IMG/VR virus record: IMGVR_UViG_3300028596_000020
Span: 1-47,999 of that record
Length of the DNA: 47,999 nucleotides
Origin: a virus
Reading direction: 5' to 3' (one strand)
A model generated the notes under the pieces. The model was not told the DNA's origin and did no database searches. It worked only from the letters and a program-made list of their open reading frames with translations. A program made the position numbers and the translations under genes. Positions 4,737 to 30,818 of this stretch are shown here, piece by piece. Position 1 is the first letter of the stretch. Each line of letters begins with the position of its first letter.

Positions 4737-4751
4737 GCGGGAGGTGGGTTC

Positions 4752-15229: not shown

Positions 15230-15528
15230 GCGACGAGACCTTTCGTACCCTCATCATCGCTCTGCTCGGAACGGGCGGTGCCACGTTCCTCTGGACAATC
15301 GTCAAGAGCGTCATCGCGTTCAAGAACAGCGCGGAGGGCCGCGAGGACAAGGCGGTCGGGCGGCTGGAGAAGTTCGAGGAGACCTGCCGCAAGCAACTGA
15401 CCACCTCTCGCAAGTGGAGCGGGTACTGGTCTCGCCGTGCTGCGCGGTTCGAGCGCATTATCCTCGTGAACTGCCCAGACAAGATGCCGGACAATCTCGA
15501 ACCAGAGCCGGAGGAAGTGGAAGAGTGA
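15226..15528 (+). CDS. Small membrane-anchored protein in lysis cassette
   Basis: 100 residues from GTG 15226 (GGAGGAAGAC before it), overlapping the previous gene by four bases. One N-terminal hydrophobic helix (LIIALLGTGGATFLWTIV) is followed by a charged region, a Trp/Arg-rich section and an acidic tail. It could act as a holin partner or spanin-like element. The assignment is by topology and neighbours only. Confidence 0.55.
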   Translation: MSDETFRTLIIALLGTGGATFLWTIVKSVIAFKNSAEGREDKAVGRLEKFEETCRKQLTTSRKWSGYWSRRAARFERIILVNCPDKMPDNLEPEPEEVEE

Positions 15529-16173: not shown

Positions 16174-17529
16174 ATGAGCACACTGCCAGCGAATCTGCCC
16201 GAGCGCCTGAGGAAGCGGGGACTGAAGGTCGTCGAGATCGACGGCTGGCGGTTCCGGGGTCGTCCGGCCAGTACCGGGGGCTTCAACCCGGTCGGTGTCC
16301 TCAATCACCACACGGGGGCACGTGACGTCCTCGGCGACTTCGCCGACGACCTGTCCTACGCGAACTGGATGGCGAAGGTCGGCCGGGCCGATCTCCCGGC
16401 ACCACTCGTCCAACTCTCCCTCAGCCTGGAGGGCACCGTCTACGTCCTCGCGGCTGGCCGGTCCAACCATGCGGGCACGGCGAAGTCGTCCGGTTCCGTC
16501 GCGGCCGGCGATGGCAACAGTCTCTACTGCGGCATCGAGTGGATGCTCAGTGGGACGCAGCCCATCCCAGACAAGATGTACCACGCGGGCGTCGTGCTCA
16601 ACGCGACGCTCCTCGACATCTTTGACTCGTCCGTGCAGGCGATCTCCTGTCACTACCAGACCTCGGTCACCGGCAAGTGGGACATCGGCGACCCGAGCGG
16701 CCTGCCGTTCATGGGGCACAAGGTCTTCAACGTGCCGAAGTTCCGTGGTGCTGTCCTCGACTACCGCCGCCCGAAGCCCGAGCCCGACAACTTCGTGGAC
16801 CTGACCCTCGGCCTCGCACCGATGCAGTTCAGTGACACCCCACGGGAGATGACCGCTGACGCCAAGAAGATCTTTGGTCTCGGCAAGCACATCCACTTCG
16901 GCACCGAGGCGGGCCGGGGCAACGACCTGTTCGAAATCCTTCCCACGGTCGCACGGGGTGAGGGCTACCGCTGGTTCAACAGGGTCGGCGACTGGCTCGC
17001 TGTCCACCGCGACATCGTCAAGGGCGGCTGGGACGCCGACTTCATCCCGGTCCTCAAGCACACCGAGGGCGTCGGTCATCACGGCACCCGTGGCGTGACG
17101 TGGGCTTCCTTCGACGCGGGGCTGGGTCTCAACCGGGAGATCCACATCGCGGCGGCGCACTATCTCACGAAGGGCCGCAAGCCGGGAGACCCGAACTTCA
17201 ACCTCAACCGCGAACTCGCCGAAGCGATCGGGGACTGGGCGAGGGCTCACGGTGCCGGGACCAACATCGTTCTCTATGGCGGTGACCAGAACATCGTGGA
17301 CCGCTTCGACGACACGTTCTTCGGACAGCCGCTGACCTCGCTCCAGGACGAACTCAAGAAGTGGGAGGGCACCGGCCACGGCGCGATCGACGTGCTGGCG
17401 ACCTACGACCGGGACGGCGCTGTCTCCGCCAAGTCGGTGAACACCCGCACCGACAAGGAGTTCCACCTGCACACGGACCACTTCTACACCGAGGGTGTGG
17501 TCCGGGTTCGCAAGGCCAAGGCCGCCTGA
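16174..17529 (+). CDS. Endolysin: N-acetylmuramoyl-L-alanine amidase plus EEP-type nuclease-like domain
   Basis: 451 residues, ATG with GAGGAGAGGG ahead. The N-terminal half (about 30-200) matches amidase_2 enzymes, which cut the bond between muramic acid and the stem peptide. It has a VLNHHTGA motif (His45/His46), an NHAG motif (His99) and a later His160 with the KWDIG turn (Lys168, Asp170). The C-terminal half (about 235-445) has a different fold signature: AAHYL (His329), LYGGDQN (Asp371, Asn373), AIDVLAT (Asp406) and LHTDHFY (Asp435, His436). This pattern resembles endonuclease/exonuclease/phosphatase (EEP) enzymes. The fusion may cut host DNA or another phosphoester at lysis. It ends just before the hairpin at 17531. 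Confidence 0.82.
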   Translation: MSTLPANLPERLRKRGLKVVEIDGWRFRGRPASTGGFNPVGVLNHHTGARDVLGDFADDLSYANWMAKVGRADLPAPLVQLSLSLEGTVYVLAAGRSNHAGTAKSSGSVAAGDGNSLYCGIEWMLSGTQPIPDKMYHAGVVLNATLLDIFDSSVQAISCHYQTSVTGKWDIGDPSGLPFMGHKVFNVPKFRGAVLDYRRPKPEPDNFVDLTLGLAPMQFSDTPREMTADAKKIFGLGKHIHFGTEAGRGNDLFEILPTVARGEGYRWFNRVGDWLAVHRDIVKGGWDADFIPVLKHTEGVGHHGTRGVTWASFDAGLGLNREIHIAAAHYLTKGRKPGDPNFNLNRELAEAIGDWARAHGAGTNIVLYGGDQNIVDRFDDTFFGQPLTSLQDELKKWEGTGHGAIDVLATYDRDGAVSAKSVNTRTDKEFHLHTDHFYTEGVVRVRKAKAA

Positions 17530-17624: not shown

Positions 17625-18596
17625 TCAGAGCGGTGTGAGGGCTGCCACACCCGCCGCAAACCGCTCCAACTCCTCCACCTCGCGCTTGGCGAGGCTGCCC
17701 ACACGGTCGAAGGCTCGGTTCGACCAGACGTCGTGCTCGATCTCGACCTCGGTAAGCGCCCGGTCCAGTTCGTCGATTGACATCGACCGGAGGAGCCGCG
17801 CTGCCTCGCCGATTCCCTCGCGCACATGCACGGTGTCCACGTGGACCGAGGGGATGCCGTGCCACGCTGCCTCCAGCGCGGACATCCCGTAGGTCTCGTA
17901 TCGCGACGGAACCAGCAGCACGCGGGTCTCGGCCCAGAGTTTGCCCATCTCGTTGGGATGCAGGCGCGGCCAGACCTCGACATTGTCCAGCCTGTCCACC
18001 TGCTCCCAGAACAGAGGATCGCCGTGGGTTGCGTGCGCGGGCGACTCGACGATGATGAACCGCTGGTCGTGACGCCGTTCCGCGAGTTTGAGCACGCGGC
18101 CCGCTCCCTTGTTCAGGAGGGACGAGGTCAGCGTCAGCGCGTCATGTGGGCCGTTCGGCATCTCGGAGGGGCCGCCGACAGGCGGGTGCAGGAGCCACCC
18201 CTTCGGGTCATGCCAGTTCTTTCGGGCAGCCTTCGTGTTGTAGAGACGCACCGTGGCCGCGTGCCATGCTCGCCGCAGGTCACCGCCGAACTGAGGTGGC
18301 GCGTGGACAGCGAGGATAGACGGAAGGTGCATCTTCCTCGCGGCCCGGATGGTGCTCTGAGACAACGTGGAGTGCCCGAACAGGACGCTGGCACCGCACT
18401 CCTTCGCGTCGTCCATGATGCACTGGAACGACGACCCGGACCCCGGCTGCACCGCGACCCCGTCGAGGTAGTAGGAGTCATGCGTCGTGGTGAACACGAC
18501 AGTACCCGGCACGGCGCTGAGGGTGCGGTGGGTGGAGATCTCCCCGCCCATCGACCAGAGCGGTGGGTAGCCGTGAAGGAACGCGGCGAGACTCAC
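17625..18596 (-). CDS. GT-B (GT4-type) glycosyltransferase
   Basis: 323 residues; transfers a sugar from a nucleotide-sugar donor. The N-terminal HGYPPLWSMGGE motif and the C-terminal LVPSRYETYGMSALEAAWHG motif (E-x7-E type donor site) are those of GT4 enzymes, with the nearby IPSVHVDTVHVREGIGEAARL as a late alpha/beta element. It ends the operon that begins with the TS-like gene and overlaps the GT2-type gene upstream by four bases (ATGA). In this context the acceptor may be a modified DNA base. Capsid or tail glycosylation is an alternative. Confidence 0.8.
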   Translation of the reverse strand: MSLAAFLHGYPPLWSMGGEISTHRTLSAVPGTVVFTTTHDSYYLDGVAVQPGSGSSFQCIMDDAKECGASVLFGHSTLSQSTIRAARKMHLPSILAVHAPPQFGGDLRRAWHAATVRLYNTKAARKNWHDPKGWLLHPPVGGPSEMPNGPHDALTLTSSLLNKGAGRVLKLAERRHDQRFIIVESPAHATHGDPLFWEQVDRLDNVEVWPRLHPNEMGKLWAETRVLLVPSRYETYGMSALEAAWHGIPSVHVDTVHVREGIGEAARLLRSMSIDELDRALTEVEIEHDVWSNRAFDRVGSLAKREVEELERFAAGVAALTPL

Positions 18597-19279
18597 CGAA
18601 GACGGTTCTTCCAGTCGCGGTCCTGCGTCCAGCGGATGTATGCCATCCGGTCGGCCTTGCGGATGTTGGGATTCCGCCCACCCTCCTGGTAGGTGCGGTC
18701 GTCGATCTGCTCACCCTCGATCCATGGGTGGCGGTGCTGGATCTCGACCGGCACGAACACGAAGTTCTTCAGGTACCGACCGATGTCCCTCGCCACGTTG
18801 TCCAGGAACAGGTGGCGGATGGTGGGCGGCGCGAGGTACCCGAGGCGGCGGTAGACCTCCGTCTGGGTGACGTAGTGCGTCGGCAGGTCCGGCTCGTGCT
18901 TCTTCCGCAGGCCGTCGTCACCGTAGGCCACGCCGAGGTTGTCCCCGAGTGCCTCTACGAGCGCCGCGTCCCAGCCGTGGTCCACGGGCACCACGTCGTC
19001 ACCGAACATCCCGATGTGGGACACGCCGTCCTTCTCGGCGCGTGCGGCCACTTCGTTCAGGGACGCCCCGAAGCCGATGCGCTCGCCAGAGATAACCGTG
19101 ATCTGCTTCTCGTAGTAAGACCACTTGTCTAGGAGGTCGTCGTAGCCCAGCAGGGCCGGGTCGTCGTAGTCGATGCGGAGGTACAGGTGCCAGTCCACAG
19201 CGGTCATCGTGGTCGCCTCAAGGAAGCGGTGCAGATTGCCGGGTCGGCCCCGCGTGGGGAGCAGGATGCCGAGAGTCAC
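18593..19279 (-). CDS. GT-A (GT2-type) glycosyltransferase
   Basis: 228 residues. It starts with LGILLPTRGRPGNLHRFLEA, the standard nucleotide-binding start of GT2 enzymes, and has a GMFGDDVVPVDHGWD acidic motif (Asp-Asp) expected to bind the metal and donor. A later NVARDIGRYL-to-HPWI segment looks like the acceptor region. The stop and start overlap the neighbouring genes by four bases on both sides. The likely role is a sugar addition step in the same pathway as the neighbouring glycosyltransferases. Donor and acceptor are not predictable from sequence. Confidence 0.78.
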   Translation of the reverse strand: MTLGILLPTRGRPGNLHRFLEATTMTAVDWHLYLRIDYDDPALLGYDDLLDKWSYYEKQITVISGERIGFGASLNEVAARAEKDGVSHIGMFGDDVVPVDHGWDAALVEALGDNLGVAYGDDGLRKKHEPDLPTHYVTQTEVYRRLGYLAPPTIRHLFLDNVARDIGRYLKNFVFVPVEIQHRHPWIEGEQIDDRTYQEGGRNPNIRKADRMAYIRWTQDRDWKNRLR

Positions 19280-19542
19280 CGGACCTCGACCTCGACGTTC
19301 TCCACCTTGACGTAGGTGTCGAGGAAGGCGACCTTCCGCTCCTTGTGGTACGTCACCTCGTAGTACCGACCGTCCGGCAGGTCCGTGGAGCAGAGGGCCT
19401 TCCAGTAGCCCAGCACGTAGGCGAACCAGACGACGTAGACCGTTCCGTCGGTGACGCCGCGGACGATGTCCTTGGCCATCTCGGGGAATGACTGCCCCTC
19501 GTCATCTGCTGAAAACGGGATGCCCTTCAGGTTGTCAGCCAT
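19276..19542 (-). CDS. Small protein, unknown
   Basis: 88 residues; ATG 19542, with an AAGGAG site about nine bases before it. Contains a GTVYVVWFAYVLGYWKAL hydrophobic segment, then a YYEVTYHKERKVAFLDTY strand-rich end. It overlaps the GT2-type gene by four bases. It lies between the Stealth-like gene and the glycosyltransferases and may be a partner of either. Not recognised. Confidence 0.65.
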   Translation of the reverse strand: MADNLKGIPFSADDEGQSFPEMAKDIVRGVTDGTVYVVWFAYVLGYWKALCSTDLPDGRYYEVTYHKERKVAFLDTYVKVENVEVEVR

Positions 19543-19547
19543 GCTGC

Positions 19548-20234
19548 CTACTCCTTCTCATAGGGTGACTTACCAGGAAAAAGGTACCTCAACACCGGCT
19601 CTACGGCTGAGCGGAACGTGTCGTTCCCGGAAGAGAGCCATGCGCCCTGCGGGAACGGGTGGTGCTTCCGCAGCATCTTGGGGTCGGGGTGCTCGACTCC
19701 GCCAATGTCGGCGATGGCCCCGTACAGCGTTCTCAGGTGGACGGCGTCAACGTGGACACTCTTCGCCCAGCGCAGCGCCTCCCGCATCTCCGTCTTGTGG
19801 ATGACCAGCGGCAGGTGAACGTCGTACGACATCGCGTCCATCAGCCCGCGCTTCTCCATCAGCGCGGCGGTCGCCCGCAGCCCCTTCGCCCACGGCGTCT
19901 TCGAGGCAGCGTTCTCCTTGAGCAGGATGTCCAGCGGGCCACGGTGGTAGATCGGTACGCGGCCGACGGGGTGCATCGCGTAGAAGTCGTCGTTCCAGAG
20001 CAGGAAGGGGTCGCTCACCTCGGCGACGTTGCAGGCTGCCGCGATGTGGCCTCGCGTCGAGGAGTACGGCGACCCGCCCTGCATCCGGTGCCGGTACTCC
20101 ACGGTGTCGCGGTTGAGCCATGAGGGGGCACCGCCGAAGACCCAGACGCGGTCGTACTCGATGTTCTCCAGCGTGCGGAGGGAGTACCGGAGTTCCGGGT
20201 TGTCTCCATCTCGGTTCGCGTAGACAATGTCCAT
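19548..20234 (-). CDS. Stealth-type sugar-phosphate transferase homologue
   Basis: 228 residues. It starts MDIVYANRDGDNPELRYSLR, closely matching the first conserved region (CR1/CR2) of Stealth proteins. A VWVFGGAPSWLNR stretch and a DPFLLWNDDFYAMHPVGRVP segment follow, with the NDD acidic motif characteristic of CR2. A STRGHIAAACN stretch sits between them. Stealth enzymes move a sugar-1-phosphate from a nucleotide-sugar onto a sugar hydroxyl. Here the only nearby potential substrates are the products of the glycosyltransferases, so a phosphodiester-linked decoration is possible. This is an inference; no phosphotransferase activity is shown by the sequence alone. Confidence 0.72.
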   Translation of the reverse strand: MDIVYANRDGDNPELRYSLRTLENIEYDRVWVFGGAPSWLNRDTVEYRHRMQGGSPYSSTRGHIAAACNVAEVSDPFLLWNDDFYAMHPVGRVPIYHRGPLDILLKENAASKTPWAKGLRATAALMEKRGLMDAMSYDVHLPLVIHKTEMREALRWAKSVHVDAVHLRTLYGAIADIGGVEHPDPKMLRKHHPFPQGAWLSSGNDTFRSAVEPVLRYLFPGKSPYEKE

Positions 20235-20431
20235 CAGAGAAGGTCTCCGCCGTCAGCGTAGTGGGTTGTGTCGGTGTCGATCTCGACGACCCGTGCGATG
20301 GTCTCCCTCTCCGCCAACTTCCGGACGTACTTCCCCGGGTCCATGAGGTTGATGCCCGCGTGGCCCACCCGCCATTCCGCAGCACCAGCGTTCCAGTACT
20401 CGACTCGACAGAACGTGGGCACCGGGATCAC
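20234..20431 (-). CDS. Small protein, unknown
   Basis: 65 residues from GTG 20431 (GTGA overlap with the gene upstream), ending in a four-base overlap with the Stealth-like gene. The sequence starts IPVPTFCRVEYWNAGAAEWRV and ends HYADGGDLL. The start choice follows the translational-coupling pattern; an earlier in-frame region is not protein-like. No family known. Confidence 0.6.
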   Translation of the reverse strand: MIPVPTFCRVEYWNAGAAEWRVGHAGINLMDPGKYVRKLAERETIARVVEIDTDTTHYADGGDLL

Positions 20432-20676
20432 AGAACGCTCTCGAGTTCGTCGGCGGTGAACTGCTCCACGAGGCGCTCGTACTCGGGACGGTGGGCATCC
20501 CGCAGCGCGGCCAGCGCCCGCCGTCGAATCTTCTCGCGTTCGCGGTTGCGGGCCATGCCGTTCTTCGCCCGGTACTCCCGCACGTACTCGTTGATCGCCG
20601 CACGACATTCATCGCACGGCGGCTCACTGATGCGACGATGGGCGTAGTATCCGCCCCTCGTCCCGTGGTTGATCAT
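20428..20676 (-). CDS. Small Cys-pair protein, unknown
   Basis: 82 residues from ATG 20676 (GAGGGAG ribosome site, one base after the previous stop). The HGTRGGYYAHRRISEPPCDEC motif with Cys-x2-Cys is seen in many small actinobacteriophage proteins of unknown role, followed by a long basic helix. It could bind zinc or nucleic acid. No function assigned. Confidence 0.65.
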   Translation of the reverse strand: MINHGTRGGYYAHRRISEPPCDECRAAINEYVREYRAKNGMARNREREKIRRRALAALRDAHRPEYERLVEQFTADELESVL

Positions 20677-20677
20677 G

Positions 20678-20992
20678 TCAGACTCCCTCGCTATGGACCA
20701 CGACGCGCCCCTGCGTGACAATCATAGGGGCACTCTCGAACGACTTGAGGCTGTCCACCTCATACCCGAGCGGCACGGTCACCTCCTGGGGTCGACTGGC
20801 GTGGTACCTGATGGACGACGCCACCATGGACGCCGCGTCGTCACTGTCCGCGTGGAACCCGTAGGACAGCCACGTCCCGTTCCCGCTTCTCAGCGTCGCA
20901 CAGGACACTGCCTCGTGGCCGAGCACGACGTCGTGCAGTACCGCCCCGATCGCAGCGTCCGGTACCTGGACGTGCGCGGTGTACTCGTTCAT
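20678..20992 (-). CDS. Small protein, unknown
   Basis: 104 residues, ATG 20992, overlapping the glycosyltransferase stop by four bases. Mixed alpha/beta composition with SYGFHADSDDAASMVASSIRYHA in the middle, no metal or enzymatic motif. It probably belongs to the modification operon but its role is unknown. Confidence 0.62.
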   Translation of the reverse strand: MNEYTAHVQVPDAAIGAVLHDVVLGHEAVSCATLRSGNGTWLSYGFHADSDDAASMVASSIRYHASRPQEVTVPLGYEVDSLKSFESAPMIVTQGRVVVHSEGV

Positions 20993-21990
20993 ACCAGTTC
21001 CTCCATCTCATTGACGCGGTCCTGGTCTGAGTCCCAGAACACACGCTTCATCTTGGTGCCTCGGTGCTTGTTCAGGCCGCGCCAGTCGACCTCTCCCCAC
21101 TCGTACTCATCGCCGCCCCTCGGGCAGACGCGCAGGTAGTGGTTCCCCATCTCGTACTGCTGGAGCATCGTGTACTCGTGCTCCGACAGGATGGCCCGGT
21201 TGTCCGCGGTACGGATGAGCGACTTGGTCTCGTTGACCGACTCGACCCAATGCTCGTACGCGAACGACGGCATCGTGAACGCGTCCTTGCCCGCCTGGAA
21301 CAGCGTGGCGAGAAAGCCGACGTCTTCACCCACGACGCCGAACTGCTCGAGGTTGAGCCGGATGTCGTCTTGCTCCAGCCGCTCCAGGTCCCACGCGGTC
21401 CACTGGCGCGGCGTGCTGCCGCCGTTCAGCAGGTATCGCGTCTGCTGGTTCCGGTTGTCGAACGACCGCAGCCGCTTGATCGCGGTGCCGATCACCGCGT
21501 TGGGCTCCTCGTCGAACACCATGTTCGCGACCAGCCCCATCATCGTGACGGTGGCCTCTTCCAGCGCAGCCACCCCGCCGAACTCGGCGATGTCCTCCTT
21601 GTCGAAGACCCGGCTGCACGGCATCCCCGCGTTCGGCCCGCGCACGAAGTGATGCTGATACAGGGGGCGGAACTGGAGCAGGTCGTCGTCGAGCATGACG
21701 GCCCGCTGGTGCCCGTACTCCCTCGCAAGGTCGTACGCGCCCCAGCGGGCCGCTCCACAGGAGTTGATCTGCCCGTCGGGCAGCGCCTCGAACCGCATGG
21801 CAGGGAAGTTCCTGCGGTACTCGGCTGCCTGTGACTCCCGGACGACCACGTGAACGTCGTCCAGTCGCCCCCACTCTGCCATACGGGTCAGGGTGGGCGC
21901 GTCGTATCGGTTGTAGGAGATCACCCACACCGGGAGGCGGTCCTCCTTCTCCGCCCGGTACAGGTGGTGGAACATCTCATCTCTGAGCAT
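20989..21990 (-). CDS. TET/JBP-associated-type (TAGT) glycosyltransferase, copy 1
   Basis: 333 residues from ATG 21990 (ATGA overlap with the TS-like gene stop). The VWVISYNRYDAPTL start, HVVVRESQAAEY second strand, SCGAARWGAYDLAREYGH helix and VMLDDDLLQF acidic motif (residues 101-103) match the TAGT family. These GT-A-fold enzymes are known from phages, where they glycosylate hydroxymethylated bases. A paralogue is found at 29817-30818. The first 110 residues of the two align without gaps with 63 identical positions (my count). The same operon starts with the TS-like enzyme, which suggests the sugar is placed on a modified pyrimidine. Confidence 0.8.
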   Translation of the reverse strand: MLRDEMFHHLYRAEKEDRLPVWVISYNRYDAPTLTRMAEWGRLDDVHVVVRESQAAEYRRNFPAMRFEALPDGQINSCGAARWGAYDLAREYGHQRAVMLDDDLLQFRPLYQHHFVRGPNAGMPCSRVFDKEDIAEFGGVAALEEATVTMMGLVANMVFDEEPNAVIGTAIKRLRSFDNRNQQTRYLLNGGSTPRQWTAWDLERLEQDDIRLNLEQFGVVGEDVGFLATLFQAGKDAFTMPSFAYEHWVESVNETKSLIRTADNRAILSEHEYTMLQQYEMGNHYLRVCPRGGDEYEWGEVDWRGLNKHRGTKMKRVFWDSDQDRVNEMEELV

Positions 21991-23645
21991 CAGTCGGCGT
22001 CCGCCCCTCGGTACTTGTCGGTCATGAGGGCACCGCAGTCGAGACACTTCTCGTGTTCACCGGGTCGCCCCTCGAGAAAGATGCGGGTTGAACCGTGGTT
22101 GCATTCGTCGCCGAACAACGCCGCCTTGAGGTTGTCGGCAGCCTCGGTCAGCCACACATCGCGGGCGATGGGTGCCACCCGCAGGCACAACTCCGTGACG
22201 TACTCCCGCTTCTGCTCGTCGGGGAGGTTGTCCACGTTGTCGCAGTAGGCGTTGAAGTCGTCGACGATATCCTTGATCGCGATGTCCGCCGCCTGCCCCG
22301 TGGTCTCCTCAGTTTCCGCCAGGAACCACGACAGCATGAGGTTGACCTCGTCTGGTCCGTCCATCTTGCCGGCGAGCCAGCATCCGTACTTGATCCCGTA
22401 GACCAGCAGGTCGATCAAGGTGTCCGCCGAACTGTCGTACTCGTCGCCAACTCCCAGCCGGTCCACCTTGCGGGCCATGTTCGCCAGGATCGACATCTTC
22501 TCGCCGCGCTTCTTCCACGAGTCGCCGTACGACGCGTGCTTCTTCGCGTGCAGGTCTTTGACGAAGTCGTAGAACGCCCGTACAGCCTCGCTGGTGGGTG
22601 CGCCGGTACCCGCGCCCGCCGCACCGCTGCGCGACGTCTGAGGGGCCTCTGAGAGCACGCTGGCGGGCACGCGACCTATTGCCACGGCCAGCGCCGTGCC
22701 GTGGAGCATCTCGAGCCAGCGGGGCTCGCGCTGCCAGTACCACGCGATGGCGATGGCCCACGATCGGAACAGCGGCTCATCGAAGTCCTCGAGAAGTTCC
22801 GGCGTGGCCTGCCCCGCACGACACATCCCCTCCCACGAGAACCAGCGGTCGATCATGATGTCCACCCACTCCAGGGTCCGGTCCATGTGGTCCGGCATCT
22901 GGAACGGGGTGATCGCGTGGGGGAACGGGTCGTTCTCGAGACGACTGGCCTTGTCCCAGTGTGGTGCGTAGAGATGCAGGTTGCCGATGTTGAACGTGAG
23001 GGTGCCCACGGTGTTCCCGATCAGGTGAGCCACGATCTCCTGGAGGGTGCTCCATTCGAAGGCGTTGATGCCCGACCAGCCCCACATCACGTCGTTGGAC
23101 CGCACGGTCACTGTCAGGTGCAGGGCACCGAGGCGGCTCTGGAACTGCAAGAAGTCGTTGCAGGGGATGTCCTTGCCCGGATTCGTGTCCATCTTCGGGT
23201 CGTAGATCGAGATCACCGCACGCCGGGACAGCGGGTCTTCCCTGAGCACATCCACGACGTGGGCGAGTTGGTCTCCCCCGATCAAGCCCTCGTCGTTCTG
23301 ATGCGGCCAGCCGCCCCACATCCTGATCCGCGGACCATAGCCCCCGCGCCACGTCTTCCCGTCGTCGGAGTAGTCCTTGGCTCGCGGCAGGTACGCGCTC
23401 AGCCACTCGATGTCGTTGCGCCCCGCCAGCACCCACATCGTCTCAGCGATCTGCGCGAAGACGTTGGCCTTGCGGTTGAGGCTGAGAACCTCACGGTGCT
23501 GCGGGTCGGTCAGGACGATCTGGGTGTTCAGCAGTTCCTTCACCCGCCCGTTCCTGCTGCCGACCTCGTCACCGATGTCCAGCAGCCGTGAGCAGATAAA
23601 CGGCAGCGCCTCGGTCACCGTTGGAAACGTGTACTTCTGGTTCAT
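21990..23645 (-). CDS. Thymidylate-synthase-like protein fused to Nmad1-like domain and zinc ribbon
   Basis: 551 residues. Residues about 5-300 are a ThyA-type enzyme: RNGRVKELL, IAETMWVLAGR, KDIPCNDFLQFQ with catalytic Cys162, VRSNDVMWGWSGIN (Asn194 at the position of the dUMP-binding Asn) and NLHLYAPH. The Asn suggests dUMP rather than dCMP as substrate. It could make dTMP or 5-hydroxymethyl-dUMP. A Gly/Ala/Thr linker (about 333-352) leads to a helical domain (about 352-430) with KKHASYGDSWKKRG, resembling Nmad1 (DUF1599). The C-terminal 50 residues hold a Cys/His pair and a CLDC pair, a likely zinc ribbon. It is the first gene after promoter element A. Confidence 0.85.
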   Translation of the reverse strand: MNQKYTFPTVTEALPFICSRLLDIGDEVGSRNGRVKELLNTQIVLTDPQHREVLSLNRKANVFAQIAETMWVLAGRNDIEWLSAYLPRAKDYSDDGKTWRGGYGPRIRMWGGWPHQNDEGLIGGDQLAHVVDVLREDPLSRRAVISIYDPKMDTNPGKDIPCNDFLQFQSRLGALHLTVTVRSNDVMWGWSGINAFEWSTLQEIVAHLIGNTVGTLTFNIGNLHLYAPHWDKASRLENDPFPHAITPFQMPDHMDRTLEWVDIMIDRWFSWEGMCRAGQATPELLEDFDEPLFRSWAIAIAWYWQREPRWLEMLHGTALAVAIGRVPASVLSEAPQTSRSGAAGAGTGAPTSEAVRAFYDFVKDLHAKKHASYGDSWKKRGEKMSILANMARKVDRLGVGDEYDSSADTLIDLLVYGIKYGCWLAGKMDGPDEVNLMLSWFLAETEETTGQAADIAIKDIVDDFNAYCDNVDNLPDEQKREYVTELCLRVAPIARDVWLTEAADNLKAALFGDECNHGSTRIFLEGRPGEHEKCLDCGALMTDKYRGADAD

Positions 23646-23690
23646 GTGTCGCCTTTCTCGATGTGTTGCCTACACCTAAGCCTAGCAGGT
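23646..23690 (-). promoter_or_regulatory. Operon promoter-leader element, copy A
   Basis: Reading down the minus strand: GCTAGGCTTAGG then TGTAGGCAAC (core 23686-23665), AGAAAGG (23658-23652) and ATG 23645. The core is one base longer than in the other copies, and this copy lacks the GC-rich hairpin between core and ribosome site. TAGGCT fits the TAnnnT form of a sigma-A -10 hexamer. It heads the modification operon. Confidence 0.7.
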
Positions 23691-23719
23691 GGGGCTAGGC
23701 GATGAACAGTGGGGAGTTT

Positions 23720-24598
23720 CTACCACCACTGCGGAAGGACCGGAGCGGGCTGAGCGCCGGGGTGTGCCGGTCGGTACGGAGTCTTCTTGCGCGGGTTGAC
23801 TGTCTCACGGACGTACTTGCCGAACTCGCAGAGGGTGTTCTGCACGTCCATCGGTGTGAGGGGGCGCTTGTTCAGCCTGACAAGCGGGTCGTCCCTCCAG
23901 TCGACGGTGAGGTCGTGGATCACGTTCTCCGGCTTCTTCGAGGAGTTGATCAGCGCGGCACCGCGGATGGCACCGGGGCCAGCCACGACGAACGACAGGT
24001 CCGGCTCTTCGTCCTCGGGGTGGAGGTAGAGCCAGTCGGTGAGGATCTGCATCGACAGGAACTTCCCGAGGCCGGGGGTAGACCGCAGGATGGAGAACCG
24101 CTCTTCCTGGGTGGTGGCCGCTAGGAACGCCCTCCCATTGTTCACGAGGAACGAGCCTGTGACGCGCAGCGCCCCACCCACCTTGTCGTTCGGGGTTCCC
24201 GGCTCCGGGACGATGATGTACGCACCGCTGAAGACCCGGTTCCCGCTCTTCCGGTAGGCATCCAGAGCCTGGAACAGAATAGCCTGCTGGTGGACAAACT
24301 CTGTCGCAAGAGGGAAGTGCCCCAGCGCGGCTCGCATCGCGTACCACGTCGACGGCTTGTTCGTCAGCCGGTAGAAGACCAGCCGGGCGATCACGTTCGC
24401 CGGGTCCTCGTCCTGCAACTCGAACACGAACTGCGAGCCGGGGTCCAGCACGCGGAACATATTCGTGAACTTGCGGTTCGCCAGCACCGGGTCGTTGGTC
24501 CACGGCTGAGGCACGTCGTACTGGCGGGCGAGCCAGATCTTGTGCCTCTCCCACACCATCCCCCGGTAGAGGTCCAGCATCTTCTCGTCTTCGGTCAT
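23720..24598 (-). CDS. Alpha-glutamyl/putrescinyl thymidine pyrophosphorylase-like protein (aGPT-PPlase)
   Basis: 292 residues from ATG 24598 (ATGA overlap with the DNA polymerase stop). Matches the aGPT-PPlase family of HhH-glycosylase-like proteins. Signatures are an early VWERHKIWLARQ with PWTNDPVLANRKFTNMFRVLD (about 33-52), a central VFSGAYIIVPEPG, an HhH-like TPGLGKFLSMQILTDWL (about 174-190) and FVVAGPGAIRGAAL (about 203-216). In known phages these enzymes replace the pyrophosphate of a hydroxymethyl-dU pyrophosphate in DNA with an amine such as putrescine or an alpha-glutamyl group. No matching kinase is visible in the window. It lies at the end of the replication operon rather than with the TS-like gene. 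Confidence 0.78.
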   Translation of the reverse strand: MTEDEKMLDLYRGMVWERHKIWLARQYDVPQPWTNDPVLANRKFTNMFRVLDPGSQFVFELQDEDPANVIARLVFYRLTNKPSTWYAMRAALGHFPLATEFVHQQAILFQALDAYRKSGNRVFSGAYIIVPEPGTPNDKVGGALRVTGSFLVNNGRAFLAATTQEERFSILRSTPGLGKFLSMQILTDWLYLHPEDEEPDLSFVVAGPGAIRGAALINSSKKPENVIHDLTVDWRDDPLVRLNKRPLTPMDVQNTLCEFGKYVRETVNPRKKTPYRPAHPGAQPAPVLPQWW

Positions 24599-26631
24599 CA
24601 GTGTCCTGCCTTGTACCAGTCGTGGGCGGGCTTCCCGCTTGTCAGGGGGAAGGGAACTTCTCGGAACTTCGTGGTGAAGCACGCTTCGGCTTCAGCCTTC
24701 ATGGCCTCGTGGTTGTCCTTGGGGAACGAGAAGACCACGGCGTCGTGGACCGTGATCTTGAGGTAGTGCAGCAGGCCCGCGTCTCGGCACCGGATCAACC
24801 CGTCCACGAGTAGTTCGCGGGTGCCGTTCTGGCCGTACAGAGCAGGAGACTGGGTGTACTCACGTCCCGGCTCGAGGTAGAGCACCCCACCCCACGCATT
24901 CCGCAGGGTGCCGCTCTCCCCTTCTTCACGTGCCTTCTTCATCCACTTGGCGACCGACGGGTAGGCCTCGCCGAACTTCTTGATCACGTCGTGGCCCTTG
25001 GACAGCGGGATGCCCACCGTCTCGCTCACCCGCTTGCCCCCAGCGCCGTACGGAATGGCGTGGGTGGCGTCCTTCGCCCGCTGACGAAGCCCCTTCGGGT
25101 CCGTCTCGAACTTGTCGCCGAAGCACCATCGCGCCGTCTGGATGTGCGCGTCGAAGTTCGGGTTGGTCATGTCTCTCAGGTAGCGCCGGTCTCCACTGTA
25201 CGCCGCGACGACACGGGCGTCAGCCGCGGAGAAGTCCATCTCGTACAGGACGTGGTCCTCAGCGTCGGCCACGAAGTACGACTTCTCCACGGCACCCGGC
25301 CCCCGCGCTGTCCAGACAGACAGGCCGGGGCTGGACACCGAGAAGCGCCGTGACCGCTGGAGCGACGTGATCTCCGGGTGGACAAACCCGTCGTCCTGCA
25401 CGTTGTCGAGCGCGAGCCGCGCCAGCGACCGCTGTCCCAGCAATTCGCCGAGCGCCTCGCCGAGCGCCTCGTTCTTCGTGCCCTCGGTCACACCCTTGAT
25501 CGCGTCACCGGACAGGGACGGTGCGCCCTTCTTCGTCTTGGGCAGCCGCTTCGCATCCGGCCCCAGGATGTCTAGGATCGCCTGCTTCCCCGCGTTGCTC
25601 CTCCACGGCTGCTTCCCCTTCGTGGGGAACCCGTAGTCCATCACCAGATCAACGAGCAGGGCGTCCTTCCGGCGCTGAAGTTCCAGCACCCGTGCCTCGG
25701 CCACTGGCCGGTCCACGCGGAATCCGTTACGGCTGATCTGGGCGTTGATCGCCGCCACCTCTTGCTCTCGCCACTCGTAGTCCGTCGGGTGGGCGACGCT
25801 GAACATGGCCCGCGCCAACTCCCGGTCCGCCACCACGTCCTGTCGCGCATAGGCGCGGTACTCGTCGTTGATGGGGATCTCGCCGATGTCGCAGCCGTAC
25901 CGTTTCGCCATCTCCTTCAGGTCACCGTGCTTGCCGGGGATGCCGAAGGTGAAGCATGTGTTCTCGAGCGAGTGGAACGCCATCGCGGACCCCGGCGAGT
26001 TCGAGAGTTGGACCACACCCCTCGCGTTGAGGAAGCGGTCAGGTGCGGGGGTGACGCAGGTTGCGTGGATGAAGGTGTCGAACACCGGGAGGTTGAGCGC
26101 TTCGTCGCCGAGCAGGTAGGACAGGTCGTAAGAGTGGATCTGGTGGCCGATGATCAACCGGGCCGACCGCAGCGCGTCGACCACCTCGTCGAAGTCTTCG
26201 GTGACCACCACGTCACCCTCGCCCCATGCGTACTGACCCAGCCGGAAGAAGTCACGGGGGTCGGTGTTCCAGCGGTGGTCCGACGAAAGGGTCTCCGTGT
26301 CGAAGGTGAGCACGTCGTCGTCGAACATGTGGAGGTCCAGCCCGTGCGCCTGCTTCAGCGCGAACTGGACATAGTACTGAGCGTTCGGGTAGCCGACCTC
26401 CTTGCGGAAGCCGCCCCCGTTCTGGTCGGGGATCCACACCGTGTCGTGGAACTGCTTCGGCCCAAGAGTGCGGACGGCGGCGTTCTGGTCGAGCAGGTCG
26501 AACGCGAGGTCGGCGTCGCCGTCGGTGTACCGAACCTTGAGGGGCCTGCCGAGGGCGGCTAGGGCTGCCTCTCGGATGATGGACTTGGCCGCGTCCGGGA
26601 ACTTCACCCGGTTCATCGCGATGGTGTCCAC
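24598..26631 (-). CDS. DNA polymerase I (family A) with 3'-5' exonuclease domain
   Basis: 677 residues from GTG 26631, chosen because GGAGGG sits just before it; an upstream TTG would run into a hairpin. The exonuclease is marked by LTFDTET (Asp111, Glu113). Polymerase motifs are A (MDFSAADAR, Asp466, with Asp rather than Glu at the steric-gate position), B (KDATHAIPYG, Lys520, His524, Tyr528) and C (TVHDAVVF, Asp630, with Ala in place of the usual Glu). There is no 5' nuclease domain. It replicates the phage DNA, possibly accepting a modified dTTP analogue. Confidence 0.92.
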   Translation of the reverse strand: MDTIAMNRVKFPDAAKSIIREAALAALGRPLKVRYTDGDADLAFDLLDQNAAVRTLGPKQFHDTVWIPDQNGGGFRKEVGYPNAQYYVQFALKQAHGLDLHMFDDDVLTFDTETLSSDHRWNTDPRDFFRLGQYAWGEGDVVVTEDFDEVVDALRSARLIIGHQIHSYDLSYLLGDEALNLPVFDTFIHATCVTPAPDRFLNARGVVQLSNSPGSAMAFHSLENTCFTFGIPGKHGDLKEMAKRYGCDIGEIPINDEYRAYARQDVVADRELARAMFSVAHPTDYEWREQEVAAINAQISRNGFRVDRPVAEARVLELQRRKDALLVDLVMDYGFPTKGKQPWRSNAGKQAILDILGPDAKRLPKTKKGAPSLSGDAIKGVTEGTKNEALGEALGELLGQRSLARLALDNVQDDGFVHPEITSLQRSRRFSVSSPGLSVWTARGPGAVEKSYFVADAEDHVLYEMDFSAADARVVAAYSGDRRYLRDMTNPNFDAHIQTARWCFGDKFETDPKGLRQRAKDATHAIPYGAGGKRVSETVGIPLSKGHDVIKKFGEAYPSVAKWMKKAREEGESGTLRNAWGGVLYLEPGREYTQSPALYGQNGTRELLVDGLIRCRDAGLLHYLKITVHDAVVFSFPKDNHEAMKAEAEACFTTKFREVPFPLTSGKPAHDWYKAGH

Positions 26632-26658
26632 GGCCCTCCTGTCTAAAAGGAAAGGCAA

Positions 26659-26727
26659 CCGGGGCGGGGGAGAAAGGCTACGTCGGTAAGAGTGGCAACT
26701 ACTCCCGACGGAACGACCCCGCCCCGG
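26659..26727 (-). terminator. Nested hairpin between ssDNA-binding and polymerase genes
   Basis: Arms 26659-26669 and 26717-26727 pair perfectly (CCGGGGCGGGG). Inside, CGTCGG pairs with CCGACG and GAGT with ACTC. The structure fills a 112-base gap between the ssDNA-binding gene stop and the polymerase start. It could attenuate polymerase expression relative to the very abundant ssDNA-binding protein, or process the transcript. Confidence 0.6.
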
Positions 26728-26743
26728 CTGCGATCAGGGTACC

Positions 26744-27265
26744 TCAGATGAGGTCGTCGTCGTCGACTTCGATCTCGGCGAAGTCCTCGTCGGGGCTGGA
26801 TGCACCGCCGCCGAAAGACTCGTCGTCACGGGCCTTCATGATGTTGTTCAGGAAGAACGAAACACCCTTCGACTCGTTGTTGTAGGCGAACGACGTGACG
26901 CTGAGGTAGGCCCAGCATCCCGAGTAGATCTCGGTCGCGTCGAGGATGGGCTGGCGGTCGGTGTCGACCAGACCCACCTTCTTCTTGGACCGGGCGTTGA
27001 GGAGGAAGTGCCCCTCGTTCTCGGGGTACTTCTCCAGGTCGGTGTCGTCGCCGTCCTGGAACGCGATCTTGAGGTTGCGCGGGATCTTGCCGTTCCACTT
27101 CGCGCCCTTGCCGTAGTCCTTGGCCTCCTCGATCGCTTCCTCGATCTGCTTGATGAGGGCCTTGTCCTTCTTGGGGATCAGGGCGCTGGTGCGGAACACA
27201 CCGTCGTCATCGGGCAGGAAGGTGAACGTCAGTCGCACCGGCTTCTTCGTAACCACTTTCGCCAT
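26744..27265 (-). CDS. ssDNA-binding protein, Enc34/DUF2815 type
   Basis: 173 residues. The order of the sections (VRLTFTFLP start, KWNGKIPRNLKIAFQDGDD, NARSKKKVGLVDTDRQPI, EIYSGCWAYLSVTSFAY, KGVSFFLNNI) and the acidic tail (about 155-173) are those of the Enc34 ssDNA-binding family. It coats replication intermediates; the acidic C-terminus normally binds partner proteins. It lies between the RecB-like nuclease and the polymerase and overlaps the former by one base. Confidence 0.86.
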   Translation of the reverse strand: MAKVVTKKPVRLTFTFLPDDDGVFRTSALIPKKDKALIKQIEEAIEEAKDYGKGAKWNGKIPRNLKIAFQDGDDTDLEKYPENEGHFLLNARSKKKVGLVDTDRQPILDATEIYSGCWAYLSVTSFAYNNESKGVSFFLNNIMKARDDESFGGGASSPDEDFAEIEVDDDDLI

Positions 27266-28449
27266 CAGGCTTCTCCATTCTCGATCCCTGCGAAGTCCGT
27301 CTCCGCAGAGTGGAGAGCGTCGGCCGGTGGCCGGGGGTCGCTCTCCTTGGCGAGAGACAGGCGTCCCTCGCTCATCCCGAGGTACTCGCCAAGGAGTTCC
27401 TCGAGCCTTTCACCGCCCCCGACCAGTTTGTCCAACTGGCCGAAGGTGGAAATCTTGCGCTTGGACACGTCGTCCCAACCGTATCCCGCTTCGAGGAGGC
27501 GCTTGATCGCCTTCTCCTCGTCGGTGATCTTGCGCCGCCCGCCGCTCTGCACGACCTTGAAACCCGGGACCGACCCGGCCTCCTCGTAGGCTTGCTTCAG
27601 TGCAGCGTCTTCGATGTCAGTGATCCACCGCTTCAGTTCGCTGGTGCGGCTGTACGCCTCTGCCATCTCATCGCCGGTGAGGACATCGGGGTCACCGAAG
27701 TCGATGGCAAGCATCCGCTTCATGCGGGGCTTGCAGATACCGGCCACCGGGCACCATCGGCAGACCTCTTCGCTGGGTCCGAAGGGCGCGTCGTCGCTCA
27801 GCGCCAACTTCGCAGCGGGAATGACGTCGTCCCGCCAGTTGAGGAGTTCGTGACGGGTGAGCGTCTCCTCGCTGATGTTGTTCATTCGGGGCTGCCAGAC
27901 CGTGGTCGTGATCTCGTGAATCGTGAGCGGGTCCTCGATCAAGGTCTCGAGCGCGCCCACCCCGTAGAACCTGAGTTGCGGGTTCCCCACACACTGGACC
28001 TTGACACCCGCGCCGTACTTGATGTCGATGACACGGATGCGCCCACTCGGGTACACGATGACCGCGTCGGCGGTGCCCCACACGCCCGGGACGCCGGTGT
28101 CCACCACGACCTCGAGGTAGAGCACCGCCCCCTCCTCTTCGGCGAGACACTCCTGGAGGAACTCGATCCACTCCTCGACGTACCGGAGTTGGTCGTCGTG
28201 CCAGTCTTCGAGAGCGTTGAGCGCCCAGTCCAGCATCCCGAGATCGTAGTGGCCGACCTCACCGTCCAGAAGCCGGTAGGACGCGACCACTTCGCAGAGC
28301 GTGTGGAACATCGTGCCCTCTTCGGCGTAGATGCTGTCTTCCTGCTCCGGCGCGTGGTCCCTGATCATGCGAACCGACGCGGGGCACGCGGTCCAGCGAT
28401 GCGAGGCACTCGGCCCCAAGATCGCGTGCCCTGTACGTCCTTCACCCAT
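27265..28449 (-). CDS. RecB/Cas4-like nuclease, DUF2800 family
   Basis: 394 residues from ATG 28449. Has the motifs of DUF2800: SASHRWTACPAS, a conserved His region (EEGTMFHTLCE, His49), GTADAV (Asp128), VIDIKYGAG (Asp142, Lys144) and later Gln158. Cys22 and a C-terminal Cys cluster (Cys230, Cys233, Cys239) may hold an iron-sulfur cluster, as in Cas4. A long helical extension ends the protein. It is probably an exonuclease used in DNA replication or recombination beside the ssDNA-binding protein and polymerase. Confidence 0.85.
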   Translation of the reverse strand: MGEGRTGHAILGPSASHRWTACPASVRMIRDHAPEQEDSIYAEEGTMFHTLCEVVASYRLLDGEVGHYDLGMLDWALNALEDWHDDQLRYVEEWIEFLQECLAEEEGAVLYLEVVVDTGVPGVWGTADAVIVYPSGRIRVIDIKYGAGVKVQCVGNPQLRFYGVGALETLIEDPLTIHEITTTVWQPRMNNISEETLTRHELLNWRDDVIPAAKLALSDDAPFGPSEEVCRWCPVAGICKPRMKRMLAIDFGDPDVLTGDEMAEAYSRTSELKRWITDIEDAALKQAYEEAGSVPGFKVVQSGGRRKITDEEKAIKRLLEAGYGWDDVSKRKISTFGQLDKLVGGGERLEELLGEYLGMSEGRLSLAKESDPRPPADALHSAETDFAGIENGEA

Positions 28450-28613
28450 CAGACTGGCCTCATCCACGTCACGGTGACTTCGCCCGGCACGGACCAGTCC
28501 ACATCCACGATGTGAGCCCCTCGGTTCACACCGTCGTCAGGCTTCGGGATGGGTACGGAGAACCCGTCCTCGTTGACGTCGTAGACGACACGGTGAAGTT
28601 GCACGGTGTTCAT
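28449..28613 (-). CDS. Small protein, unknown
   Basis: 54 residues from ATG 28613 (ATGA overlap on both sides). Reads MNTVQLHRVVYDVNEDGFSV, a strand-rich protein. It may be a small accessory of replication. No family. Confidence 0.6.
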   Translation of the reverse strand: MNTVQLHRVVYDVNEDGFSVPIPKPDDGVNRGAHIVDVDWSVPGEVTVTWMRPV

Positions 28614-28819
28614 CAGATGAGGTCCTCCAGGTCGGCCTGGACGTACTTGGCGAACTCCATCTCGAGGACGGCCCGCCACTGGTTCCCGTGCGTCTCGAAG
28701 AACTCCTTGATCTCGTCACGGGACGCCAGCCGGTCGAGCCGAGCGCCGTCGTTGATGACGGCGATCTGCTCGCGGTGGGCGTCCGTGAACTCGTCGCGGA
28801 GGTAGACGGCTACCTTCAT
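28613..28819 (-). CDS. Small protein, unknown
   Basis: 68 residues, reading MKVAVYLRDEFTDAHREQ. Mixed helix and strand with charged residues, no motif. Start and stop overlap the neighbours by four bases, supporting its reality. Confidence 0.6.
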   Translation of the reverse strand: MKVAVYLRDEFTDAHREQIAVINDGARLDRLASRDEIKEFFETHGNQWRAVLEMEFAKYVQADLEDLI

Positions 28820-29229
28820 CCGAGCGCCTTGAAGAAGTCGCGGACGTTGTCGGCGTTGAGCTCCCGCACCCGGCTCGCTCCGGCGGCGTCGAGCGCCTCG
28901 CGGACCTGCGCGGCCTCACCACCGGCCACCATCTCGGTCGCCTTCTTGACGGCCAGCGCCAGCAGTTCCTCGTCGGACTGCTCGTCGTCGATGTCCTCGT
29001 CCTCGTCCTCATCTTCCTCGACGGGCTCCTCGGCCATCGGCTCCGGCTCCGGCTCCGGCTCGGGCTTCGCCTTCTTCTTCGCCGGCGTGCTCTTCTTGGC
29101 GGGCTTCGCCTCCGGCTCCGGCTCCTCCAGGTCCTCCGGCTCCGGGAGACCTGCGGTGCCCACCAGCATCGCGAGGATGCGGACGTCGAGGGGCGACAGT
29201 TCTTCGGTGGTGTCGATCGAGATTTGCAT
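28816..29229 (-). CDS. Acidic low-complexity protein, unknown
   Basis: 137 residues. A short ordered start (MQISIDTTEELSPLD) leads to a Glu/Pro/Lys low-complexity run (about 30-75), a Glu/Asp cluster, and a small helical C-terminal domain (ADNVRDFF). The helical end may bind a partner while the acidic run acts as a spacer. The codon pattern is repetitive. No function assigned. Confidence 0.6.
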   Translation of the reverse strand: MQISIDTTEELSPLDVRILAMLVGTAGLPEPEDLEEPEPEAKPAKKSTPAKKKAKPEPEPEPEPMAEEPVEEDEDEDEDIDDEQSDEELLALAVKKATEMVAGGEAAQVREALDAAGASRVRELNADNVRDFFKALG

Positions 29230-29556
29230 TCACGCCTCCATGGTGAAGTAGTCGACCACTGTCGGTCGAACAGGGGTGTCGTTGCCCTCGCCATCGCCCG
29301 GCCCCACGATCAAGGCCGTGCCGTGCAGGACGACGCCCACACCGAGGATTCGTTGCGCGAACAGGGTCGCGAACGGGTTGGGGGGAAGGCTGCGGAGCAG
29401 GCCCTCCTCGTTGACGTAGATCGTTGCCACCTTGCCGAAGACGCCCTCGATGTAGCCGTCAACGACGGCCTGGAACGAACCGAGGCTACTCTCGATCTCG
29501 GTGTCTTGGACGGTGCCGTCGGGATCTACGATCACGGCTCTCAATGTTTCTGCCAT
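29230..29556 (-). CDS. DUF3846-like protein
   Basis: 108 residues from ATG 29556, first gene after promoter element B, with an AGAAAGG ribosome site. Matches the DUF3846 layout: VDGYIEGVFGKVATIYVNEEGLL, then PPNPFATLFA and VVLHGTALIVGPGDGEG. Seen often in phages and actinobacteria; function unknown, apart from being near replication genes. Confidence 0.68.
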   Translation of the reverse strand: MAETLRAVIVDPDGTVQDTEIESSLGSFQAVVDGYIEGVFGKVATIYVNEEGLLRSLPPNPFATLFAQRILGVGVVLHGTALIVGPGDGEGNDTPVRPTVVDYFTMEA

Positions 29557-29643
29557 CTGGCTTCGCCTTTCTCTGGTCCGCCGGGGATGCCCTCCGGCGC
29601 GTTGCCTACGCATAGCCTAGCGCGTGGGTTATCTATTGGACAA
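29557..29643 (-). promoter_or_regulatory. Operon promoter-leader element, copy B
   Basis: Core GCTAGGCTATGC then GTAGGCAAC (29621-29601), hairpin CGCCGG/CCGGCG (29579-29599), AGAAAGG (29572-29566), ATG 29556. TTGTCC (29643-29638) lies 18 bases before TAGGCT and would serve as a -35 element. It overlaps the end of the zinc-ribbon gene at 29629. Confidence 0.7.
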
Positions 29644-29817
29644 GGGGGTGCTTCGGTCAGTTGCATCAACCTGAACCATGCTGGTGATCGTGATGACCCC
29701 ACAGGTGTTGCACTTCCACATCTCGATCATCGTGCTGCTACCGCTCTTCGCTGGGTCAACACCGTAGAACAGGTCTCCGTCCTCGCTGCCACAACACTTC
29801 GGGAGACAACGGTCCAT
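29629..29817 (-). CDS. Zinc-ribbon miniprotein
   Basis: 62 residues. CxxxCC (residues 4-9) and CNTC (36-39) are likely metal ligands. It is the last gene of operon C, coupled to the TAGT gene by ATGA, and ends inside promoter element B. It may be a partner of the glycosyltransferase or a transcription factor. Confidence 0.6.
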   Translation of the reverse strand: MDRCLPKCCGSEDGDLFYGVDPAKSGSSTMIEMWKCNTCGVITITSMVQVDATDRSTPLSNR

Positions 29818-30818
29818 CAGATGAGATCCTCCATCTCTCGTCTCTCCACGTCCGCAGGCCAGTGGAACCGCTCCGTCGGCTGGCCGCGGAACTTCGCCAA
29901 CTTCTGCCAGGAGACGTCCTTCCACCCGTGCTCGCTGCCGGGGATGCGCTTCTCCTTGAGGTAGTTCGGCCCGATCTCGTAGTTCTGGAGGATGTCGTAC
30001 TCGTACTCCATGAAGAGCGGAAGAGTACGCTCGTCGCGGATCACCGACTTCTCGAGGTTGACGTCCTCGGGCCAGTGGTCGAACGCGAACGACGGTGTGC
30101 AGAACACGTCCAACCCGTTCTCCAGCACCGTCGCCATGAGGCCGATGTCCTCGCCGGTCACACCGAAGTGCTCGATGTTCAGCCGGATGTCGTGCTCCTT
30201 CATGCGGGCGGTGTTCCAGATCATGGCCTGCCGGGGCGTCGCCCCGCCGTTGAGGATGTAGCGAGTGCGGTGGTTCTCGATGGAGAAGGACATATGGCGC
30301 TTGATCATGCCGCCGACCACGGCCTTCGGCTGCTCGGCGAAGACCTCCAGCCCCAGCCGCCCGAACGCCGTGATGGAGGACTCTTCCATGGCCACCAGTG
30401 TCCCGAAGTACTCCTCGGCATCCGTCGCCGATGCGACCCCGCTGCACAACTCCCCGATGTTCTTGCCCTGCACCTTCGCCCGCTGGTACATGAAGCGGAA
30501 CTGGAGTACGTCATCGTCGAGCATGATCACCTCGTCGTGCCCGTACTCGCGAGCGATGTCGAACGCACCCCACCGGGCCGCTCCGCACGAGCCGATCTGG
30601 TCATCGGGCAGGCTGACGACCTGGAGCATGGGGAACGCCTCGGCGTACATCTCGGCCTGCGAATCACGGACCACGACGTAGATGTCGTCCGTGCGCTCGT
30701 AGTGCTGCATCTTCAGCAGGGTGGGCGCGTCGAGCCGGTTGTACGAAATCACGTACATCGGCACCCGGTCGTTCTTGTCGTGGGACTTGACCCACTCGAC
30801 CATCTCGTGTAGCAGCAT
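29817..30818 (-). CDS. TET/JBP-associated-type (TAGT) glycosyltransferase, copy 2
   Basis: 333 residues, paralogue of 20989-21990. Motifs: MYVISYNRLDAPTL, IYVVVRDSQAEMY, SCGAARWGAFDIAREYGH and IMLDDDVLQF (Asp101-103). A shared later region includes RYILNGGATPRQ, HDIRLNIEHFGVTGEDIG and PSFAFDHW. Of the first 110 residues, 63 match copy 1 without gaps. It lies in the replication-type operon C rather than with the modification genes, so the two copies may act in sequence or on different targets. Confidence 0.78.
   Translation of the reverse strand: MLLHEMVEWVKSHDKNDRVPMYVISYNRLDAPTLLKMQHYERTDDIYVVVRDSQAEMYAEAFPMLQVVSLPDDQIGSCGAARWGAFDIAREYGHDEVIMLDDDVLQFRFMYQRAKVQGKNIGELCSGVASATDAEEYFGTLVAMEESSITAFGRLGLEVFAEQPKAVVGGMIKRHMSFSIENHRTRYILNGGATPRQAMIWNTARMKEHDIRLNIEHFGVTGEDIGLMATVLENGLDVFCTPSFAFDHWPEDVNLEKSVIRDERTLPLFMEYEYDILQNYEIGPNYLKEKRIPGSEHGWKDVSWQKLAKFRGQPTERFHWPADVERREMEDLI

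Follow-up and report, generated by a model that had tools for sequence, protein, structure and literature searches.

The window analysed here is the whole IMG/VR virus record IMGVR_UViG_3300028596_000020 (47,999 bases), for which an initial annotation had proposed a pathway of thymidine hypermodification and glycosylation. DNA polymerase I, HMUDK_hel (the helical subunit family of 5-hydroxymethyldeoxyuridine (5-hmdU) DNA kinase), a thymidylate synthase (TS)-like enzyme, the TAGT-type glycosyltransferase TAGT-B, a Stealth-like protein, a DUF6275 protein, and GT2- and GT4-type glycosyltransferases follow one another in a single minus-strand run, in part with stop/start overlaps, and TAGT-A, a paralogue of TAGT-B, lies upstream of this run (Table 1). 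What is new here is a predicted hydroxymethylase of the deoxyuridine monophosphate (dUMP) type and TAGTs combined with only the helical part of a DNA kinase, no kinase having been found, a variant of phage base hypermodification.

A coupled minus-strand gene run

Stop and start codons overlap as TGATG at three junctions of the run (polymerase/HMUDK_hel, TS/TAGT-B, and small frame/Stealth). The TAGT-B/g24, DUF6275/GT2, and GT2/GT4 junctions overlap as well, and the remaining gaps are of a few bases, the only larger one down to GT4 being the 75 bases between HMUDK_hel and TS. The initial annotation had listed a TS-like enzyme, two TAGT-type enzymes, and two other glycosyltransferases, with TS, TAGT-B, Stealth, GT2, and GT4 in one operon. 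Family matches (PF00303, PF20691 twice, phrog_14945, and PF13692) and the spacing of the genes bear this out, while two of its labels, discussed below, were changed or could not be confirmed.

In the rest of the window, head, tail, and lysis genes lie on the plus strand and replication genes on the minus strand. The left end of the record interrupts the major capsid gene, there are no tRNA genes, and no terminase or portal gene occurs among the annotated frames. An endolysin-type gene (phrog_880) lies at 16174-17529; its C-terminal half appears by eye nuclease- or phosphatase-like and has no Pfam match. Just upstream of it, at 15414-16151, a protein with many DPEIQDPEVQ-type repeats is encoded.

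Table 1. Genes and features of the minus-strand region, with window positions.
Feature	Position	Strand	Match and remarks
TAGT-A, GT-A type glycosyltransferase, 333 aa, LDDD motif	29817..30818	-	PF20691 4e-12, phrog_842 1e-16
DNA polymerase I (context)	24598..26658	-	phrog_17 2e-68; stop overlaps HMUDK_hel start as TGATG
HMUDK_hel, helical subunit family of 5-hmdU DNA kinase	23720..24598	-	PF18723 7e-46; likely start ATG 24598, open frame up to 24682
TS-family pyrimidine hydroxymethylase (predicted), Asn (dUMP) type motif RSNDVMWGWSGINAFE	21990..23645	-	PF00303 7e-24
TS C-terminal extension, KHASYGDSWKKRGE...ARKVDRLG	22000..22590	-	conserved domain, no confirmed family
TAGT-B, GT-A type glycosyltransferase, DDD motif	20989..21990	-	PF20691 1.5e-10; likely start ATG 21990, open frame from 22047
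g24, small conserved protein	20678..20992	-	linked to TAGT-B in relatives
g23, small conserved protein	20428..20721	-	conserved
Compact Stealth-type protein, 228 aa, predicted sugar-1-phosphate transferase	19548..20234	-	fold match CpsY/GNPTAB; PF11380 3e-4, below cut-off
DUF6275 protein, 88 aa	19276..19542	-	PF19791 1.6e-19
GT2-type glycosyltransferase, 228 aa	18593..19279	-	phrog_14945 3e-34; same cassette as Stealth
GT4-type glycosyltransferase, 323 aa	17625..18596	-	PF13692 3e-8; same cassette as Stealth

The TS-like enzyme points to a uracil base

The TS-like enzyme has the TS fold, the catalytic Cys, and the RS-x-D motif, with C162, R182, S183, and D185 invariant in the TS alignments. 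At the base-recognition position it has Asn (GWSGINAF), as have the TS of phage M6 (GAYGANAV), which carries RSNDLIWGAYGANAVH, and, at the same column, CRW-SP2 (MSSINFI), an enzyme from Ackermannviridae with the annotation deoxyuridylate hydroxymethyltransferase. The deoxycytidine monophosphate (dCMP) hydroxymethylases T4 gp42 and CF-SP2 are of the Asp type (FRNDYAW). Because the window motif matches dUMP hydroxymethylases and differs from the Asp type of T4 gp42, we predict 5-hmdU as the base, which on this motif appears a better prediction than 5-hydroxymethyldeoxycytidine (5-hmdC). M6 relatives make 5-(2-aminoethyl)deoxyuridine (5-NedU), derived from 5-hmdU (PMC11946847); our statements on the M6 pathway draw on Pfam names, PMC11946847, PMC11955845, and general knowledge.

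The base might instead be 5-hydroxymethylcytosine (5-hmC), glycosylated in T-even fashion, the TS being a dCMP hydroxymethylase as proposed for the Brevibacterium phage LuckyBarnes, whose authors predicted such an enzyme together with two DNA glycosyltransferases (PMC6588365). TAGTs are best known on 5-hmC, and among PDB entries the TS is closest in sequence to the cytidine monophosphate (CMP) hydroxymethylase MilA. However, MilA has Asp at the base-recognition column, as T4 gp42 does, where the window, LuckyBarnes, and M6 enzymes have Asn, and the WGWSGINAFE subfamily of the window TS also serves phages with an amino-acid thymidine outfit; we regard a cytosine base as unlikely.

The C-terminal domain of the TS is conserved (KHxxYGxSWxxRGE...ARKxDRLG), is common to sugar-type and amino-acid-type phages, and matches no known family. 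Its earlier description as Nmad1-like was rejected as unproven, since Pfam gave no match to DUF1599/Nmad1 (PF07659) and the hhalign probability was 9%.

HMUDK_hel occurs without a detectable kinase partner

The gene first labelled "aGPT-PPlase" belongs to the family that Pfam now names HMUDK_hel, the helical part of a 5-hmdU DNA kinase. The older name is outdated and would imply amino-acid chemistry, of which the search turned up no further gene. All columns invariant in the alignment from M6 gp55, its counterpart, to proteins of soil phages are present in the window protein. In M6, gp55 adjoins a separate P-loop subunit, gp54 (PF18748), and the neighbourhood also holds the amino-acid:DNA transferase (ADDT) gp51 (PF18724), a pyridoxal-phosphate (PLP) enzyme, and a radical S-adenosylmethionine (SAM)-like gene. 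A 637-residue protein of SP10 is named 5-hmdU DNA kinase, with a fold that agrees with window HMUDK_hel, and phiRSL1 also has HMUDK_hel. The profiles PF18748, PF18751, and PF18724 matched nothing in the window, in the complete genome of LuckyBarnes, or in the group members G001-G004, G009, and G011, and no small Walker-A frame was found in the window, nor near HMUDK_hel in the tested group members and LuckyBarnes. Searches of the PDB with the HMUDK_hel and TAGT-B sequences returned nothing useful.

The Microbacterium phages at loci L003, L026-L028, L060, L066, and L073 combine an Asp-type (dCMP-like) TS, with the motif YRADYS, and a P-loop protein whose annotation is thymidylate kinase or AAA-ATPase; most also have HMUDK_hel and most a TAGT, and they are predicted makers of 5-hmdC. 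Because of this combination, HMUDK_hel may not be uracil-specific. Bacterial genome records (L108-L187) also hold HMUDK_hel genes, many with a TS-like gene and none with a TAGT or ADDT detected nearby; some of these may be prophage or defence genes.

A TAGT glycosyltransferase gene is coupled to the TS gene

TAGT-A and TAGT-B are 50% identical paralogues, both above the PF20691 cut-off and with the DDD motif. The TGATG overlap of TS and TAGT, a translational coupling, is kept in the window, L009, L012, L022, and LuckyBarnes, which argues for a direct functional link between the two enzymes. Judged by family and gene context, the window TAGTs would transfer sugar to a DNA base. A T-even TAGT puts a second glucose on glucosylated 5-hmC (PMC13216743; PMC13390438), and the presence of two TAGTs in the window suggests two successive sugars. 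With the dUMP-type motif, this coupling, and the recurrence of TAGT, TS, and HMUDK_hel in many phages, the initial proposal of thymidine hypermodification by a TS-type hydroxymethylase and TAGT glycosylation gains support.

No TAGT was found in L010 and L011, where the TAGT-A slot (3949-4878 and 4043-4969, respectively) is taken by an unrelated protein of 310 residues that has an LDDD motif but matches nothing in Pfam. We did not call it a TAGT, as hhalign aligned only a short DDD stretch (probability 35%); it may represent a new family of GT-A enzymes that act on DNA. In L080, a 231,255-base record, three TAGT genes lie next to HMUDK_hel and an Asn-type TS.

Sugar and amino-acid outfits share the TS and HMUDK_hel core

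An HMUDK_hel alignment scan gave 80 viral loci, reaching about 9 kb from the HMUDK_hel match, which were clustered, with loci from a phage collection added, into 59 groups. A TAGT occurs in 14 of these, and profiles detected a kinase or ADDT in 23; no group has both, and 22 have neither outfit. Kinase or ADDT was thus present in 0/14 TAGT groups versus 23/45 others (P=3.5e-4), an exclusivity that is clean for U-type phages only, whereas kinase co-occurs with ADDT (P=9e-6) and ADDT with the PLP enzyme (P=5e-11); the Fisher test behind these values treats groups as independent, which related groups are not fully. The HMUDK_hel tree requires at least 8 changes between sugar and amino-acid states, and the outfits have therefore been exchanged repeatedly.

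It is conceivable, although we hold this only tentatively, that HMUDK_hel is more than a kinase component and serves as a general DNA-side adaptor presenting 5-hydroxymethylpyrimidines to swappable partners, either a P-loop kinase and an amino-acid transferase (M6-like) or TAGTs (window group, LuckyBarnes, phiRSL1-like). If so, the TAGT outfit would be the bacterial-virus counterpart of base J, as glycosyl-5-hmdU, and would explain part of the TAGTs that occur without alpha- or beta-glucosyltransferase.

In a large phage group, loci L013-L016 and L034-L050 (for example L014:5630-11253), a TS of the window subfamily is found with HMUDK_hel, an ADDT-like protein, a PLP enzyme, and a P-loop kinase of family PF18751. 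This family may thus supply the kinase subunit of those amino-acid type pathways.

A Stealth-GT2-GT4 cassette with virion-associated relatives

The initial annotation also named a Stealth-like transferase. The fold agrees: the AlphaFold model (pLDDT 96) has its best PDB matches, by Foldseek, in the Mycobacterium protein CpsY (8j2n, E 2.7e-9) and GlcNAc-1-phosphotransferase, and NDD 81-83, H140, and R168 are conserved in an alignment of 33 sequences. The Pfam CR2 model (PF11380) stays below its cut-off (21.2 bits vs 39.4). A family scan gave 80 loci, 5 in the window phage group and 75 outside it. TS, HMUDK_hel, or TAGT lie nearby only in the 5 group loci, and none of the 75 others has DNA-modification genes. 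Virion genes were found near Stealth in at least 36 of the 75, in 22 of them within 1 kb, counts that are lower bounds because few queries were used to find virion genes. A frequent order is major tail protein, Stealth, adaptor, in five loci also with GT4; in Streptomyces phage TurkishDelight GT4 is followed by the major tail protein, Stealth, and a head-tail adaptor. Within the window group, L010 keeps Stealth-GT2-GT4 and has neither TAGT, L021 keeps the cassette and lacks TAGT-B, and L022 keeps TAGT-B and Stealth, with GT2 and GT4 not detected.

The first reading of the locus had all glycosyl-type genes, Stealth included, acting serially on one base, which would give a phosphosugar oligosaccharide on 5-hmdU with an SP-15-like outcome. 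The genes do lie in one coupled operon, the Stealth protein has the fold of a sugar-1-phosphate transferase and retains the catalytic residues, and SP-15 DNA has a phosphodiester-linked sugar (PMC5977210). Co-operonic glycosyltransferases need not act on one substrate, however, and the SP-15 precedent was down-weighted by the family context and the independent gene loss just described; we find action of the cassette on the modified base improbable. Because many Stealth relatives sit among virion genes and because cassette and TAGTs are lost separately, we assign Stealth-GT2-GT4 to virion or tail decoration, that is, it is probably a virion glycosylation cassette, with a putative target.

Proposed pathway

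Gene families, their order and coupling, conserved motifs, outfit exclusivity, and family contexts are observed directly; beyond them, the best reading, and in our judgement a fairly probable one, is thymidine glycosylation, in which TS, HMUDK_hel, and the TAGTs make glycosyl-5-hmdU and the Stealth cassette is separate. One transcription unit would then hold two modules, one for DNA and probably one for the virion. The TS-like enzyme would make 5-hydroxymethyl-dUMP, which would be phosphorylated by host or other kinases and then used by the polymerase. HMUDK_hel, a DNA-glycosylase-like helical protein, may bind or flip 5-hmdU in finished DNA, its putative role when no kinase is present. TAGT-B and TAGT-A, presumably in this order, would attach a first sugar and probably a second one, with a host nucleotide sugar as donor, and the resulting glycosyl- or diglycosyl-5-hmdU would protect the DNA against host nucleases. 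In the other module, the sugar-1-phosphate transferase of Stealth type would act together with GT2 and GT4 to decorate a virion or tail protein.

Several points weigh against this reading. Glycosyl-5-hmdU is itself a prediction from the genes. In the TAGT tree, the window proteins fall together with those of phages predicted to make 5-hmdC (Shimodaira-Hasegawa-like approximate likelihood ratio test, SH-aLRT, 82), so the acceptor base is not readable from this tree. For the HMUDK_hel model (pLDDT 89), the PDB fold matches, best to a 5-phosphomethyl-dU (5-PmdU) glycinyltransferase and then to the DNA glycosylase AlkA, are weak (E 0.2-0.4). The window Stealth genes sit in an early operon and not among virion genes. 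Because the record is truncated on the left, the absence of a kinase from the window is weak evidence by itself. Finally, the limit on outfit exclusivity stems from L084, a C-type TAGT phage in which a 132-residue P-loop frame, found by motif, overlaps the HMUDK_hel start, and from the Microbacterium TAGT phages, whose P-loop protein belongs to no Pfam family.

The L084 frame, together with the strict conservation in the window of a protein that is the kinase partner in M6, would also fit a pathway in which HMUDK_hel has a kinase partner, from phage or host, that escaped detection, and the product is phosphorylated 5-hmdU. The TAGTs would then have a different substrate or act once the phosphate is in place. 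Profile and motif searches of the window group and of the complete LuckyBarnes genome revealed no kinase, and no ADDT was found, which makes this pathway very unlikely in our view. Should glycosyl-5-hmdU prove right, a Pfam-named "kinase" domain would be working without its kinase.

Comparison with known systems

The core of the window pathway, an Asn-type, predicted dUMP hydroxymethylase of the TS family with HMUDK_hel, is that of M6/ViI-type thymidine hypermodification, but the P-loop kinase subunit, ADDT, PLP enzyme, and radical-SAM enzyme of that type were not found in the window, which has TAGTs instead. The closest parallel is the LuckyBarnes cluster, with TS, two TAGTs, HMUDK_hel, and TGATG coupling of TS and TAGT, and with no kinase detected in the complete LuckyBarnes genome; it differs in that the Stealth-GT2-GT4 cassette was not found in the stretch read, and its authors described it as a possible dCMP-hydroxymethylase system (PMC6588365). 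The Stealth-type protein shares fold, NDD motif, and conserved His and Arg with CpsY and GNPTAB (PMC11418123, PMC10668966), but has only 228 residues and lacks the long spacers.

TAGT homologues occur without alpha- or beta-glucosyltransferase (alpha-GT, beta-GT) and without a known product in 288 of 753 phage genomes (PMC13216743), and the glycosyl-5-hmdU reading offers a concrete test of what such "solitary" TAGTs do. Glycosylation of 5-hmC (or 5-hydroxycytosine) in T2/T6 and Mosigvirus likewise joins a TS-superfamily hydroxymethylase to a TAGT, whereas the window has HMUDK_hel, its predicted modification is on uracil/thymine, and neither alpha-GT nor beta-GT was noted. In predicted product type, a sugar on the hydroxyl of 5-hydroxymethyluracil, the window resembles base J (glucosyl-5-hydroxymethyluracil) of kinetoplastids. 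Base J is made by a dioxygenase and a non-TAGT glucosyltransferase; in the window, in contrast, hydroxymethylation would already take place on the nucleotide. If our reading is right, phages put sugars directly on 5-hydroxymethyluracil, giving a base J-like mark outside eukaryotes on a core that is used elsewhere for amino-acid modification.

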